Shown piece by piece: positions 10,111 to 18,400 of a DNA stretch of 25,042 nucleotides. The stretch's first letter is position 1. Each line of letters opens with the position of its first letter. Made by a program: the position numbers and the translations under genes. The stretch covers positions 1 to 25,042 of the forward strand of contig KV419489.1 of NCBI GenBank assembly GCA_001630475.1. Direction: 5' to 3'. The notes under the pieces are model-generated. The model worked only from the letters and a program-made list of their open reading frames with translations. It ran no database searches and was not told the origin of the DNA. Origin of the DNA: Sistotremastrum niveocremeum HHB9708. Lineage: Eukaryota > Basidiomycota > Agaricomycetes > Sistotremastrales > Sistotremastraceae.

Positions 10111-10428
10111 TTAATTTGGAAAACGGCTTTGGTAACAGCGAAGACGTCCGAGTCGATCAAGCTCAGTGTGATACGGACAGAGTAGAGTCGTCGCCGGCAT
10201 CGGAGGGTGTTTATCCCTTGGTTTATCCGGGCGCGAATATGTTATGACTGTCTGCGAGCAGATTCCTTTTCAATGAGATTATTGCGAGAGAGATGCGAGA
10301 ATGGCATGGCACTGGCCAGAGCGTGCAAGACGGCAGGCCCTGGAGAGGGATAGAGGCCTAGTAGAGGCTCAGAGCGTGACGTGACGAGACGGACTTCGCT
10401 CGATCAATCGTTTCGGGTTTGTTTAGTT

Positions 10429-10453
10429 CATCAGCAAAGCCGCGTGGACCTGA
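10429..10453 (+). repeat. Left terminal inverted repeat of the Plavaka element
   Basis: CATCAGCAAAGCCGCG, then three mismatched bases, then ACCTGA; inverted partner at 17686-17710. Confidence 0.75.
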
Positions 10454-10460
10454 CCCCGTC

Positions 10461-10500
10461 TGAGCAGACCTGAGCAGACCGTTCAGACCCGTCAGACCCG
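10461..10500. repeat. Left subterminal CAGACC repeats
   Basis: Short direct repeats CTGAGCAGACC, CTGAGCAGACC, GTTCAGACCC, GTCAGACCC, GTCAGA. Variants CCTGAACAG and TGTTCAGAC occur near the right end, so these may be transposase-binding sites. Confidence 0.5.
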
Positions 10501-10732
10501 TCAGATGCTCCCTAAGAAGCCGTCAGACGTGAGCACGCCTGTCTTGGAAACTCGGAACCTGAGCAGAGAGCGGTCAGAGACTGGTCATTTTACTTTCAGA
10601 TCAGTTCAGACGAAGTAGTAAAAGGCACGAATATCGTATATAGAATCTGAACAGGCCTGATTACATCGGAACATAGACTAGATTTCTGTACATAAAGAAT
10701 AAAAGTATTGTCCAAATTGTCGTACCATGAAT

Positions 10733-12729
10733 TTAATCGCTCGCCTCCAATTCGCTCAATTCGCTCTCGCTCTCGCTTGCTTCCTCCTCCTCATCTTCGA
10801 CCACCGCGGCCTGCTTACGACCCTTTCCTTTTCCTTTCGCTATCCCCTTCCCTTTTCCCTTCCCCTTCTTCCCCGCAGCTTTCGTGGTCGCCTTGCTTTT
10901 CTTTGCGGGCTTGTTCGTCGCGTCCGCAAGAGGTCGTTTAGCCGAGGTTCGGGTCGCACGAGGGACATCGGGGATGATGGGCGTGGAGGTGGTCGCACGG
11001 GGCTTGGGCCTGGGACGGATGGATGTCGTCGGGCTAGGAGAGGTGTTGGGAGCAGAAAGGGACTCTTCTGTAGCCAGATCTCCGGCGGATGACAGGTGGG
11101 GGTCAGCAAGGGCACGGTTGGCAGCATCCTTGGCAACATTCGAGGCGATGACACGGAAAGTGTTGATGATAGGCACTGGGGGAGCTTGTATAGGTGTCTG
11201 GGGATTGTTGACTGGAGGGGGAGGAGGGGGAGGCGCCGTCGGTCTGACACGGGGGACGCTGGATGGTGGGGTTGGAGGAAGGGGTATGCCGGCTGCCGCT
11301 TTCTTTGCTCGTCGCTGACGCTGTATCTTAGCCAAAGAGGACTCGTCGGACTCGCCCCTTTGTGTGGAATAATTGGCGGAGCCAGGGTACAAGATCCTAG
11401 AGGCTTTCATGAGCAAGTTTCAGCGGCATGAGGTGTGGCGTACCTATCATAAAACACGATGAGGTCCTCGGTAAACTCTCGACTTTCAGGATCTTCAAAG
11501 AAGCGAATCTGAATGCGATAATAGGTCTGATAGTCGAATTCGTCGATGCGACCGTGCGAAGAGAGTGCGAAAAGAAGCTGATTGGGTTGAGTTCATGCCA
11601 GCAGGTGAGGTAAAGTCCGGAACTTACCAGCGTCGCCCAGTAGACAATTGTCTGATAGGTCAAGAGCTTACGCGGTTGCGTGGAACGGCCGACATCCTTG
11701 AGAGAGCTGACATTCATGTGACAGATGACCATGACCTATGGTGGGAGCGAGTATGAGCTCGGCAAGCAAATGGAAAGTCAAACACCTTACGAGGATCATG
11801 AGTTGGCTGCGGTAAAGACCAATGGTAAGATCATCGGCATTGGAAAGATAGTTCTCGTAGAGATAAGCACGGAATATGCTGGGGGGGAGTTCGTTTCCGG
11901 GAGCGAGGTAAAATGCTTGTTCACTTGAACAAGGTATGTGTTCAGTGCCTTCTCATCAAGGAGTGATATAGACTTACGTGGCATTGAGGGTGTCCCACAC
12001 GACGTCGCCTTCAACCAGTAGTTTGGCGATGGCGGGATGATGAAAGCCACGGTCCGATTTGTTTCGTGCGATGAGAGGTGGATTGAAAGGGAGAAAAGGA
12101 TGGTTATCGGCGGGGGTGATGTTGAAGCTGTCCTTGACAAGGTTCTTGATTTTCTTGGTGTCAGTATTCCGCTGCTCAGTCTGACCAGTGTTGACCTGCA
12201 TTTTGTGTCAGGTCTTGTTTGCAGGCGAGCTCATCGGCACTCACGTGTTTGTTGTAGAACTCGAGATCTTCGGGCGATGCTTCATCAATCAGCCTACCAA
12301 CATGAGGACTGATCTCGTTTGCGAAGGTCACGATCTTGACGTCTTCAAAGAGCCTCATTATAAATGGTGAGACACGAGCGTAGCAAGGGTAGTGAGGGGA
12401 ACTGACTGTTCTTCATCGTCCAGGGACGTCACCTCGCCGGCAGCTAACTTATCCAACTGAACCTTTGCGTTAACTCCAGCCCAGAAGTTTCCATAGGCAT
12501 CAAAATGGCGAGCAATGAGATGTCCGACGCGAATTGGATCTCGGACCTTGGGATCACTAGGGTGGGGTGAGTTCTCTGTTGTATTATATATTGATAAGGT
12601 CACTTACCGCCTGCCTTGTGGGGCAACATTTGCAGCGACTGGAGTGTGGACGACTGGTGCTACTGCGGGGGCGGGTTCAACAATTTGAGTGGACGGGGTA
12701 GCAGGAGGTGAAGACATGCTGAGGGCCAT
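10733..12729 (-). CDS. DUF6698-like protein gene inside the Plavaka element (8 exons)
   Basis: Function unknown. Exons on the minus strand: 12729-12608, 12556-12407, 12353-12245, 12195-11978, 11923-11791, 11735-11628, 11577-11444, 11396-10733; all phases close, giving 545 codons plus stop. The first ATG is 12729, in frame with a second at 12717 and preceded by a TGA; a CTATAAAT box lies about 75 bp upstream. The N-terminus is Pro/Ala-rich. The middle has a globular region with FNPPLIARNKSDRGFHHPAI, then IFRAYLYENYLSNADDL, LLFALSSHGRIDEFDYQTYY and FTEDLIVFYDR, resembling by memory the agaricomycete DUF6698 family. The C-terminus has a poly-Pro run, a GKGKGKG-rich basic tract and an acidic Glu/Ser tail, suggesting a nuclear, nucleic-acid- or chromatin-associated protein. 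It is divergent from the transposase gene. It could be a TnpA-like helper or cargo. Confidence 0.75.
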
Positions 12730-13058
12730 CCGCTGTCAGGAGGATTGGAGAGGATTGGGGGGCTTTGTTGGAAGTGCAGAGTGAATCTCAACATGGGGGA
12801 GAATTTATAGAGGTTTGCGATGTTTGTTTTTCGCACGTTCAGCTTATATCTGTAAAACTTGGCTTCCGCTACAAATAAATACAAAGAAGTTGATATTCCC
12901 TTTCTCAGTTAGACGGAAGCCCGCGTCATGCGCTTCGCTCTCGGCAACGCTCTCGGCATTGCCGATCGTATTCAGTTTAGCCGACGCTTAGGCCTGCAGA
13001 AGCGTGACCCTTACGCCCTTCTGCTTCTCTGAGTCAGACTTTAACAGGGTTTTGTCTG
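12730..13058. promoter_or_regulatory. Bidirectional intergenic promoter region of the Plavaka element
   Basis: Separates the two divergent genes. On the minus strand, TATAAATT (complement of 12802-12809) sits about 75 bp before the DUF6698-like start. On the plus strand no clear TATA is seen; ACAAATAAATAC near 12870 is a weak candidate. It contains AGCCCGCGTCATGCGC (12918-12933), nearly identical to a motif near the right end (17668-17683), possibly a site bound by an element-encoded protein. Confidence 0.55.
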
Positions 13059-16000
13059 ATGCCCTCGCTGTCTTGCCCAGGCGCGCCACGTTGCGACAGG
13101 CTTTTCGAAAATAATCGAGCTGTGAATATTCACAAATCGTCTTGCGAGCACTATGCGCAAAGACAGACTGCACTGTCCCTTTCAATTTCGAAAAAACAAG
13201 AAAAAAGGGCCTCAGTTGCCCATGAGGGACCTGCACCGAAGAAAAGGGCTGTCTTCTCATGGGACGCACTCTCTTCTCGCAGAAAGCGTCCCAGACTAGA
13301 CACAAGTGCTGTTGTGTTGCCTGAGGTGTGTAATTGTGTGTTGCTAAGAATTTTGCCAATGAATAATATTTTTACAAAATTAGGCGGTGCACCAATCTGC
13401 CGCTGAGCCACCGATTACGTCCTCTTTGAGTGATCCATTTGACTCAAATCATGGCGTATCACCATCACATCATGAGATCAACATACCCGAATCCCCTCCC
13501 ACGCCAGAACCAGAATTTCAGACCCGACGAGGGCGAAATGTCAGGCAGCCAGCTCGATTCCATGACTTTCTCCCTCACGATCTCAATGAACCCGAGCCGG
13601 AGGTTACACCAGTACCTGAGGCAGAAAATGATCGAGTCAACCCAGTCCTGCCTCGCATCCGTCTGGTTCTTAATCGCTGGCGGACCAAAGCGAATAAATT
13701 TGGTTTATTTCGAGAGTATTCTCGGAAGCCGGGCTTTGTGCCTCGTATGAAGTCTCCAATCGCAGGTCCCTTGTCCGGATCTCCTCATGAAGCGACCTCA
13801 TCTCCTGCGCCCTCTGTAGTGCCCGATATCTGTGATACCGCTCCGCCCGAGAACCACTCCCGCACCAAAACTTTCGCTCAGAAGCTTGCAGACGCTCTCC
13901 AACCATTTCACAACTACTCGACATTCTCTCAAACCCGGTGGTATCTCCGCGGTGGCACAACTCAGCTCACCAAGGCAAAGCATGAAGATTTAATCAACAA
14001 TGTGTATCATCCCAAAAATGGCATGCATTTTGATACAGGCGATGTCACTGTGAAAGCAGTCAACAAAGGTCTGGAGGATTTGGCCGACTTCAATCCAAAT
14101 CCCGACCTGTTTTCAACGGTCGAGGGCTGGAAAGAATCACCGCTGAACATCTCCATACCACTCGGCACACCATTATCTGCGGATTACACTGTTCCAGGCC
14201 TTCGTCATCGGAGTATAATCGACATCATCAAGAGGGTCCTCACCACTGATCCAAACGCCGAAAATTTCCATCTTTATCCACATAAACAACACTACACGAA
14301 ACCATTTGTGAGCGACAACCTCCCCGACTGTATCCGCAAATCTCACTATTGCATGTCCCACAGCTGCCGGACAATGTTGAAGATTTTATTCTGCGTAAAA
14401 CGGGTAAATCAGCGAAAGGCCCACTTCTCACACACTGTCGCCGAGAGCTGTTCCAGCAAACTTGGACTACACTTCTGGATGACGACTTTCTGGCAGCTTA
14501 TCAGCATGGAATGGTCATCAAATTTCCGGATGGTGTAACTCGCCGTGCCTTTCCGCGTATATTGACATACTCAGCTGATTATCCAGAGAAGTCTGTTATT
14601 GTTCTGCTCTTCCAGACATCATTCTGATACCGTTGTACAGAGTCCTCATTGCCACTATTCGTGACCTCGGTTTGTGCCCTTGCCCTCGGTGCACGGTGAA
14701 GAAAGCAGACATTGGCCAGCTCGGAACGGATGCTGATGCCAAAAAACGAGACGAAGACACTCGCCGCAATGATGCCCGATATCGCAATCGTGTCAAAGCA
14801 AGTCGGCGAGAAGTGTACGATCGAGGAAAGGCAGTGAACAGTGCCGCGGTGGATGCCTTCTTGAAAGAATTTTCTGAAGTGCCTACCAACGTGAGTTCTG
14901 CTCGTATCAAATTTCCTGCATCACTCAACCCAAGCAGAATGCTTTTCTCCAACGTCTTGGCCCTCATGGATTCGATGTCTTTAAGATGTTGGTCGTTGAT
15001 CTGTTGCATGAATTTGAGATCGGCGAATGGAAGACGTTCCTGGCCCACCTTCTTCGCATCCTGACCACTCTCGGAGAACATAAGATCAGTGAATTGGATG
15101 ACCGGTACGTGTATCACTTCCAACATTCACATACACTTCGATTCAAAGGCTTCTTCCAGCTTTCGCAAAGTACCTCCCTTTGGAAGAGACACAATCCGCA
15201 AGTTCGCCGACAATGTATCCGAGATGAAACGACTGGCCGCCCGAGACTACGAGGACATTCTTCAGGTGCGCGAATGAAACCCCCCTTACCAGGCTGTGCC
15301 AGATAACAATTGAACATTCAGTGTGCCATTCCGTGCTTTGAAGGTCTATTCGACGAGCCACATGATGCCGAAATTCAGTCGCTCTTGTTCGCCTTTGCTG
15401 ATTGGCACTCACTTGCCAAACTACGTCTTCACACCGACACAACTCTCGAATATCTCAATGTTGCTACCAAGAATCTTGCCAAGCTCCTTCGCCATTTCGT
15501 CACAAACACATGCCCTACTTTGACGGCCTTTGAAACACCCCGGGAAGCCACGAGGCGTGCTCGAGCTGCTGCGCAAAAGCAAACTGGCCTCCACACCGCT
15601 CCCACAACCACCACCTCTACCCGAAAACCCGTCGTTTACCACCTCCTTCGCATCAAATTTCATGCCCTGGGAGATTATGTTGCTCATATCCGAGAGTTTG
15701 GGACCACAGATAATTACGATACAAGGATAGTGCGTGTTTTGCTTTCCAATCCTTTGCGTCGCTTGATAATATTCTGATAAGGGAGAAGCTCGTCATCGTC
15801 AAAAGAAACAACAATACAAACGGACAAACTTCCGGAATTTTGAAAGCCAGATTGCTCTCCAGACCCTGTTGCAGGAAAACATCGAGATCGTGAGCCATCG
15901 GGTGGAAAAGGTGCTTGGATCAATTGCGGAAGAAGAAGGAGACTCAGCACCGCGCGAGCCCATTGTCTCCGCCCCCACCGTTCTCTCAATGCCCGCTCCC

Positions 16001-17185
16001 CCTATCTCACTCGCCCTGGATATGGAGGAGACATTTCCTGAGAACACCAGATATGGCATCAGCTCCTTTTCCAAGCAAAGACTGAACATTTCCAAGTTTT
16101 ACCAGGATCATAAGGACGATCCTGCCTTGAGGGCATGTCAAACTGGCTCCATCTCATTGTTCCGATCACACTGACTTCATCCATAGGATTTCCGAGCTCA
16201 ATTGAACGATCACGTACTCTCACGCCTCCGCTCTGACAACTACAACTGGGACGAACTTCGCTTCCGTCCTGAAGAAATGCAATATCTCGACATTCACAAG
16301 GATTCTCTTCATGTCCATCAAACTCTCCAGATAAACTATACCTCATACGACCTTCAACGAGGGCGAGACTCCATTAAGCCATACCTTGAATTCAAGCCCG
16401 CAAAAATTGTTTCCAACAACGCTCCCCGCTGTCATGTCATGCTTTCAGCGCGCGAAGGGGAAGCCGCTGATGGAAAACAGACTGCTCACTCATTCTGGTA
16501 CGCTCAAGTGCTCGCAATATTCCACGTTATGGCTCGGGATCGACTCGGCTCATCCTCTGAGCACCGCCGAATTGATCTCGTATGGGTCCGTTGGCTGGGA
16601 CTTGAGCAGGAAAGCCAAGGCAGTTTCAAAGCAAAGCGATTGCAGAAGGTCGGATTCGTTCCACAAGCACCGGATGTCGCTCTCGCCGATCCAGATGCTC
16701 TCGCCGCCTTCGGTTTTGTGGACCCAGCTGATATACTGCGAGGTGCACACCTTATACCATCATTTGCTCAAGGTCGGCGTCACGATTTGTTTGGAATGGA
16801 AGTGCGTTCGGCCGTACAACCTGCTGATGGCGATTATCAGTATTTTTCCGTGAACCAGTGAGTCCCCGTTGGATAAGCGTAAGAATATCACTGACTTTGA
16901 TTCAGGTTTGTTGACCGAGACATGGCGATGCGATACCGAGGAGGAGGGGTCGGTCATCTGGATCCAGCGCAAAGTATAACGCTGGAGCTGGATACTTTCG
17001 ACGAGGAGCTGTCCCAGTCACCCATGGCTCATTCTGGGAACAACTTGGGAGGTGGTGAAGACGGGGGCTCCGAGCGCGAAGCACTTGATGCAGACGACGT
17101 ACCATCAGATTCGGACGAAGAGAGGGCCGATATAGATGAGGAAGCACAGGAGACTTCAGGTGCTCCCTGGGATATCGAAGAATAA
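13059..17185 (+). CDS. Plavaka transposase (10 exons, 1216 codons)
   Basis: DNA transposase of the CACTA-related Plavaka family. Exons: 13059-13325, 13384-14307, 14364-14590, 14641-14890, 14938-15104, 15160-15265, 15322-15729, 15782-16132, 16187-16857, 16906-17185; phases close with no stop. N-terminus: a C2H2-like finger (C6, C12, H25, C29/H31), then RGRNVRQPARFHDFLPH. Core: DDDFLAAYQHGMVI, FPRILTYSADYPEK, IRDLGLCPCPRCTV, MLVVDLLHEFEIGEWK (Asp577 probable catalytic), VPPFGRDTIRKF, CAIPCFEGL, KLRLHTDTTLEYL, HALGDYVAHIREFGTTD. C-terminus: FVDRDMAMRYRGGGVGHL and an acidic tail ending at TAA. The part normally lying between the HLYPHKQHY block and LPDNVEDF, with a SD-x-T motif giving the first catalytic Asp, appears missing, so catalysis is doubtful. 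One intron (16133-16186) is GC-AG. Start: first ATG before the zinc finger. Confidence 0.88.
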
Positions 17186-17685
17186 GGTGCGTGTGAGAAC
17201 GCTATGTGCTATCAAGGCATCATCAGGCTCATCCAATATCTTGTTTACAGGCTCTCCTTCTCTTTGAACACTCATCCCATGTTCCTCCGCCTTCCACTGC
17301 TCATGCCTGAGTATCCCACCATCCCTCAGCCAACATTCGATTTTCTAGGCCTCGCATATCGCCTCTAGAGCCACGGTCCCAAGTCTTCTCGACGAACTCA
17401 TACCTTAGCAGTCAAATCACTGTCCATTGGCTCGAGACTGATGGCCAATGGTCCACAAAGCATCATGTGCAGGCTTTGACAGCAAACGTCGGAGATTTGC
17501 CGTTGCATCAGTCCTTTTTTCTCGTTTTCTCGATTCATTGCATTAATTTATACGAGGGGATCATAGATTAATATTTGTGATATTTTAAAATGTTCTATGA
17601 CTTGGATACGAGCTGTTCAGACGAGCTCAGAGCCTGAACAGCCGCCGCGGATCGGAGTTCAAACCGCAGCCCGCGTCACGCGCCT
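17186..17685. other. 3' non-coding part of the Plavaka element
   Basis: No coding signal. It contains AT-rich sequence (about 17535-17590) that may hold transcription termination signals, then right subterminal motifs: TGTTCAGAC (about 17615), CCTGAACAG (about 17632) and AGCCCGCGTCACGCGC (17668-17683), a near repeat of the internal promoter motif at 12918. Confidence 0.5.
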
Positions 17686-17710
17686 TCAGGTTTTCGCGGC
17701 TTTGCTGATG
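17686..17710 (-). repeat. Right terminal inverted repeat of the Plavaka element
   Basis: Complement of the left end: 16 outer bases identical, 22 of 25 overall. TTAGT follows directly. Confidence 0.75.
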
Positions 17711-18400
17711 TTAGTCAAAGTCAAGCTCATGAGGATACCGAAGCTTTGAGACGTTTCTGCTCTCCCCCGGATACAGCAATATAGTTTGAAAGTGAAAGTT
17801 GGTCACAGGCGTAATTCTCGTATACGAAACCCTCAACCACAAATCATTCGAGACAACTGCAACCGATCTTTCGCATGCAAGCTTTGGGATGTATTATCCA
17901 AGACAATGACACAAGATAATACATGGATCATACTACCACAACGCACGATATTCTTTCACATATGACCTGCATTCTCACCTCTGTCGCATCCCAGAGCAGC
18001 CGTGCAGTTCCGCAGAGTACAAGAATATGTGCCGCGCTGGACCAAATGCTTGCGGAAACTGTATAGGCTTGTGAACAAGAATTGGCATCTGAAAAAGATG
18101 GGATCACCGAGATCATGGCAATTAGACAGAAAAAAGGTTTTTCGTACCCGAGGAGAGTCCACAGATATAGGACGACAGAGGGCTGAGCGACATCATCACG
18201 TACGCGCACAGATAGTGACGCCTAGGTGATCTGGGTGAAGCAAGTCAACATCTCGATACTCGAAGGAGAGAAAGGACGCGGACTGGGAATCAGATGCGAG
18301 CTCGGGAGACAAGAAGAAACAGCGAGGACGCCTTTGAAATGATCAGATAGATAGAGATGAGATGAGGGGAATCGCACAAAAGTCGTCCTGCTTATATATG
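17711..18400 (-). other. Possible short minus-strand gene, unidentified
   Basis: Downstream of the TATA box at 18391-18400, the minus strand has a 93-codon frame (18209-17928) starting VRDDVAQPSVVLYLWTLLG. A GTACGA donor and a TTTTTCAG acceptor fall inside it, so it may be two exons with a different true frame. No family is recognised. Confidence 0.25.
18391..18400 (-). promoter_or_regulatory. TATA box, minus strand
   Basis: CATATATAAG on the minus strand is followed by a CCCTCATCTCATCTCTATCTATC tract (complement of 18346-18368) like a fungal start region. Architecture and wording resemble the promoters inside the two long direct repeats. Confidence 0.5.

Follow-up and report, generated by a model that had tools for sequence, protein, structure and literature searches.

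The question raised by this locus is whether the two divergent genes lying between positions 10429 and 17710 of contig KV419489.1 of Sistotremastrum niveocremeum HHB9708 belong to one mobile element and, if so, what the second of them contributes. The window analyzed is the whole of this contig (25,042 bp, C96 in the numbering used here), and it was compared with the genome assembly of which it forms part (34.7 Mb, 111 contigs). The best explanation, in which we have considerable confidence, is a PlavakaB-type element that inserted by cut-and-paste at a TT dinucleotide, and whose lineage carries two genes head to head, one for the DDE-type transposase of Plavaka and one for a DUF6698 protein that belongs to the element.

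The transposon spans 7,282 bp and its ends, CATCAG and CTGATG, are inverted with respect to each other; CATCAGCAAAGCCGCG is present exactly at 10429-10444 on the forward strand and at 17695-17710 on the reverse strand, and no further site with up to three mismatches was found in the window. In arms of 25 nt, 22 positions are complementary (88%), including all of the first 16. The inverted ends alone are not overwhelming evidence, since 5/100 dinucleotide-shuffled versions of the window also contained an exact 16-nt inverted repeat with its halves 3-12 kb apart. However, TT lies directly outside either end, and when both flanks, fused with one TT, were compared against the whole genome, two related uninterrupted sites were aligned with one TT and without a gap at the junction, C33:23293-23873 (192/282 identical) and C54:60207-60486 (63/81), which fixes both breakpoints and the 2-bp duplication. 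The remaining matches were the flanks themselves and diverged related sites, so that a true empty allele was not found in the strain's own assembly; the related sites nevertheless agree with the boundaries that an earlier note on this DNA had proposed, and those boundaries stand. A genome search with the extended end, allowing up to three mismatches, recovered four places, namely the two window ends, C83:11807-11831 and C45:278121-278145. The ends are considered secure because of the TT duplication, the gapless related sites and the finding that the only two other places in the genome are the ends of one second copy, referred to below as copy B.

Copy B is found in two halves, C45:278118-281818 matching window 10426-14126 at 91.5% identity and C83:4881-11832 matching window 14122-17711 in four pieces of 88-95% identity. 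The halves overlap by 5 bp (GAGGG, duplicated), and at the break 397 bp on C45 are identical to the 397 bp just ahead of the break on C83 (397/397). We infer that this is a single copy parted by a young long terminal repeat (LTR) retrotransposon, the middle of which falls at the contig ends. The outer flanks of copy B are TG/TG, a 2-bp duplication unlike the TT of the window copy, and when the left flank of copy B on C45 was fused through one TG with its right flank on C83, a related site was matched from C45:273271 onward (213/321, gapless at the junction); this supports the breakpoints and shows that one insertion has its two ends on C45 and C83. In the assembly, therefore, either copy found carries both genes between matched ends in equal order and orientation, a recurrence that the earlier note had proposed to test by a genome search. 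Copy B has itself received further DNA: the presumed LTR retrotransposon (C45:281819 onward and C83:1-4880), for which the 397/397 identity points to a very recent insertion, about 2.8 kb near window 16682 (C83:7721-10494), and about 0.3 kb near window 17262 (C83:11083-11382), the last apparently flanked by an 8-bp duplication, CTCTGAAC, and having ends that resemble TAAGGC..GCCTTA.

The claim that the ends enclose one Plavaka gene and one divergent eight-exon gene is borne out by the domain matches and splice models. In the product of the eight-exon gene, residues 131-326 match positions 2-204 of the 206 in PF20414 (DUF6698), with E=7e-32 and a score of 111.2 bits, which is above the Pfam curated cut-off of 23.7; no other Pfam family was found in the protein up to E=10, and Pfam assigns DUF6698 no function. 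The protein ends in a basic K/G-rich and then acidic tail, and no relatives were found among viral contigs. All seven introns (47-55 nt) are GT-AG and all are retained with GT..AG in copy B, six with equal length and one 3 nt shorter. The copy B protein has 547 residues, and 509 of the 545 aligned residues are identical to those of the window protein. Synonymous divergence between the copies is about 0.28, and the ratio of nonsynonymous to synonymous substitution (dN/dS; Nei-Gojobori, two sequences) is 0.11 for the gene overall and 0.061 for its first 330 residues; the indels are intronic or frame-keeping, those in coding sequence netting to multiples of three. Judged from this comparison, the DUF6698 gene is strongly constrained between the copies, and the view of the earlier note that the element takes this gene along with it is upheld.

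The spliced window transposase has 1216 residues and no internal stops, and scores 51.8 bits against PF18759 (Plavaka; cut-off 26.3), whereas the unspliced DNA gives 25.5 bits, slightly below the cut-off. Intron 8 of this gene (16133-16186) is GC-AG in both copies. The profile match is confined to residues 422-591, corresponding to profile positions 179-321, and the earlier part of the profile is unmatched. Comparison with copy B (as far as window 16688) shows two coding indels, a 3-bp insertion at 15941 and, near 14300, a deletion of 270 bp, exactly 90 codons, among them that for the first catalytic Asp, which copy B retains. In this respect the element cannot be called complete, as it was in the earlier note, where the deletion had gone unnoticed. 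The assignment of the lost residue was made from an alignment of 34 sequences, 33 loci (several overlapping) and the window, with copy B as query, in which 25 sequences align at the column in question and 25/25 have Asp in their best match; eight loci are not reached, and at the threshold used the window aligns only past the missing stretch. One locus (L004) has an additional weak second match at this column, with Glu (E=0.041). By count the aligned sequences represent 16 distinct transposase places, one of which is copy B itself. The alignment was used in place of a strict motif pattern, which matched only copy B (loci L033 and L038), and the second Asp of copy B was seen by direct translation, the automatic alignment having misplaced that residue. 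Because of this conserved pattern and the D,D,E arrangement published for the Plavaka group (PMC12730594), the Asp lost from the window transposase appears to be the catalytic one, which leaves the D, D, E set incomplete. The window copy is probably non-autonomous, since the in-frame deletion removes this residue, and its movement would then depend on a related transposase acting on its ends, which are intact. Transposase dN/dS between the copies is 0.19 for 336 N-terminal codons and 0.069 for 729 further codons; either the deletion is probably young or the remainder of the transposase is still constrained, alternatives that two copies cannot separate. It should also be noted that at 15079-15828 identity to copy B falls to 69-81% per 150-bp step, as against 84-99% in the rest of the element, which suggests a mosaic of two lineages produced by recombination.

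Among the three non-coding blocks compared between the copies, the region separating the two start codons (12730-13058) is the best conserved, with 97.3% identity, as against 91-92% for the end regions and 84.8% and 70.7% for the introns of the DUF6698 and transposase genes, respectively, the last figure being lowered by the stretch 15079-15828. Gene conversion, or constraint on control sequences common to both genes, could account for such identity. The hexamer TCAGAC occurs in the left and right 300 bp five times and once, respectively, in the window copy and eight times and once in copy B. In shuffles of the window copy, 0/500 reached six occurrences of this motif, which was picked after looking, and the commonest hexamer of each shuffle reached six in 4/500.

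Searches of the genome produced at least 38 matches to PF18759 and at least nine to PF20414, both counts being of scored candidates and thus lower bounds. The PF20414 matches fall at four places, of which two are the window copy and copy B; the third is C19:136236-137014, and the fourth, on C6, is weaker. At C19 a transposase has its matched parts within C19:130720-134759, and the PF20414 match follows it about 1.5 kb downstream; none of the four places adjoins a PF18759 match other than those of the window copy, copy B and this C19 transposase. A FastTree phylogeny was made from 17 transposase cores, those of the window and copy B together with 15 from a choice of 18 loci, three having been dropped for short coverage, with rows projected onto one query. 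In it the window, copy B and the C19 transposase (C19c) form one clade with support of 0.91; the tree is made of the strain's own genome sequences, with C19b, C67 and C28 outside it. C19c agrees with copy B at 112 of 195 residues, as against 28-37% for the other 14 loci. A long inverted repeat at C19, with its halves about 17 kb apart, was considered for the ends of an element and rejected, as it has no transposon-end signs. A search there for CA ends gave 15 pairs matching at 12 or more of 14 positions (control, 1), several of them within the long inverted repeat; CATCA ends and matching flanks of 2 or 3 bp were absent from all 15. Since no ends were found, the C19 pair is taken as an unbounded association.

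PlavakaB has been defined by CATCA..TGATG ends and duplications of 2 or 3 bp (Kojima 2025, PMC12730594), and the present element resembles these Agaricomycotina transposons in its 5'-CATCA..TGATG-3' termini, its 2-bp duplications (TT in the window copy, TG in copy B), its Plavaka domain and its second gene, which some families have. The assignment is one of ends, duplication size and domain, the tree being of the strain's own genome rather than of the published PlavakaB clade. The element differs in that its second gene is DUF6698 rather than TET/JBP and its window transposase is without the first catalytic Asp, a loss that bears on the activity of the copy and not on its family membership. 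Because some PlavakaB elements are reported to bear a TET/JBP gene by the transposase (Kojima 2025, PMC12730594), the mere presence of a second gene has precedent in this group. PE-type TET/JBP, the type found in Plavaka, has an HxE hallmark (PMC12730594); HxE is absent from the DUF6698 proteins of both copies, and the identification of DUF6698 as a dioxygenase of this type was therefore rejected. In the literature searched no mention of DUF6698 was found, nor any DUF6698 partner of Plavaka or of a bounded transposon; Repbase and supplements lay outside this search, and an earlier description is possible.

The earlier note had likened the gene pair to TnpA and TnpD of CACTA elements. The plant CACTA/En-Spm transposons are similar in having two proteins, short inverted ends and motif repeats within an end, and belong to a related superfamily (CMC), but the present element ends in CATCA and not CACTA, has a 2-bp TT rather than a 3-bp duplication, and carries separate divergent genes where CACTA uses alternative transcripts; membership of CACTA/En-Spm was rejected for its termini and duplication. 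Transposition of En/Spm requires TNPD as well as TNPA, and it is TNPA that recognizes subterminal repeats (PMC2613891). These facts are the basis of an analogy and not evidence for it in the window element, where the counterpart of those repeats would be the candidate cluster near the left end. The analogy fits the two-gene anatomy and the left-end cluster of short repeats, and a TnpA-like accessory role for DUF6698 is plausible.

Several observations weigh against the proposed explanation. Just two copies were found, in one genome, and copy B is spread over two contigs; the C19 genes are oriented differently, both on the forward strand, and the termini of that pair were not found; the weak DUF6698 match on C6 is about 225 kb from the nearest listed Plavaka match; the TCAGAC cluster is nearly all at the left end (five versus one); and no PDB relative of the first 365 DUF6698 residues was found by sequence up to E=10. 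That the inverted ends match by chance and the genes form an ordinary host locus, as the shuffles might allow, is nevertheless extremely improbable, given that a second copy has equal ends with another 2-bp duplication and that uninterrupted sites related to each of the two insertions were found. It is unlikely that the element picked up DUF6698 from the host and carries it as a passenger without any role; gene capture by transposons occurs and the C6 match has no Plavaka match nearby, but the gene is constrained alongside the transposase after synonymous divergence of this extent and recurs, at C19, by the closest other transposase of the clade.

A somewhat less unlikely alternative is that DUF6698 is counter-silencing cargo, in the role supposed for TET/JBP in PlavakaB, instead of a transposition factor, as it is constrained and sits in a second-gene position comparable with that of the TET/JBP genes beside some PlavakaB transposases (PMC12730594). 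Its lack of HxE (a single HxD, at residue 58, is outside the DUF6698 match) and of any Pfam family but DUF6698 tells against this, although the protein might act by another counter-silencing mechanism. As for the transposase, its retention without the first Asp as a repressor or end-binding protein, and not merely as a broken enzyme, is rather improbable: the deletion is exactly 90 codons and the remainder is open with low dN/dS, but two copies cannot date selection to after the deletion, and a recent neutral deletion fits equally, about one-third of random deletions being frame-keeping. Under the preferred explanation, a PlavakaB-type element with DUF6698 as its own gene, this protein may have an accessory part in transposition or a regulatory one; it would most likely be nuclear and associated with DNA or chromatin, and act on the subterminal repeats or on the promoter region that the two genes share. 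More tentatively, by analogy with En/Spm, DUF6698 might serve in a PlavakaB subclade as a second protein of transposition, binding subterminal repeats as the fungal counterpart of TnpA, and copies like that of the window, whose transposase is non-catalytic though conserved elsewhere, would persist as trans-mobilized or regulatory derivatives.

The coordinates of the features are collected in the table below. At 141-1325 the contig also contains an open reading frame for a KDZ (Kyakuja-Dileera-Zisupton) transposase (PF18758, E=2.5e-42), which represents a second, unrelated DNA transposon.

Features of the transposon and its flanks in window coordinates (strand left empty where none applies)
Feature	Position	Strand	Basis
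Left target-site duplication, TT	10427..10428		flank letters and related uninterrupted sites
Left terminal inverted repeat (16 exact, 22/25 extended)	10429..10453	+	
Left subterminal TCAGAC/GTCTGA cluster, candidate protein-binding array	10458..10611	+	
DUF6698 gene, 545 aa, 8 exons	10733..12729	-	splice model and PF20414 match
DUF6698 exons 1-4	12729-12608, 12556-12407, 12353-12245, 12195-11978	-	
DUF6698 exons 5-8	11923-11791, 11735-11628, 11577-11444, 11396-10733	-	
Region between divergent start codons, 329 bp	12730..13058		320/329 identical to copy B
Plavaka transposase gene, 1216 aa, 10 exons	13059..17185	+	splice model and PF18759 match
Transposase exons 1-5	13059-13325, 13384-14307, 14364-14590, 14641-14890, 14938-15104	+	
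Transposase exons 6-10	15160-15265, 15322-15729, 15782-16132, 16187-16857, 16906-17185	+	
Junction of 270-bp in-frame deletion relative to copy B	14300..14301	+	alignment with copy B
Right terminal inverted repeat	17686..17710	-	
Right target-site duplication, TT	17711..17712		flank letters and related uninterrupted sites

In a study of Marasmius oreades, autonomous Plavaka elements were defined by the Pfam domain, a definition that would pass a copy without the first catalytic Asp. The present element shows that the second gene of a PlavakaB transposon can be a conserved gene of another kind than TET/JBP, and it places DUF6698, a family without an assigned function, in a concrete setting, that of a DNA transposon with defined ends and two copies, in which its role becomes testable.

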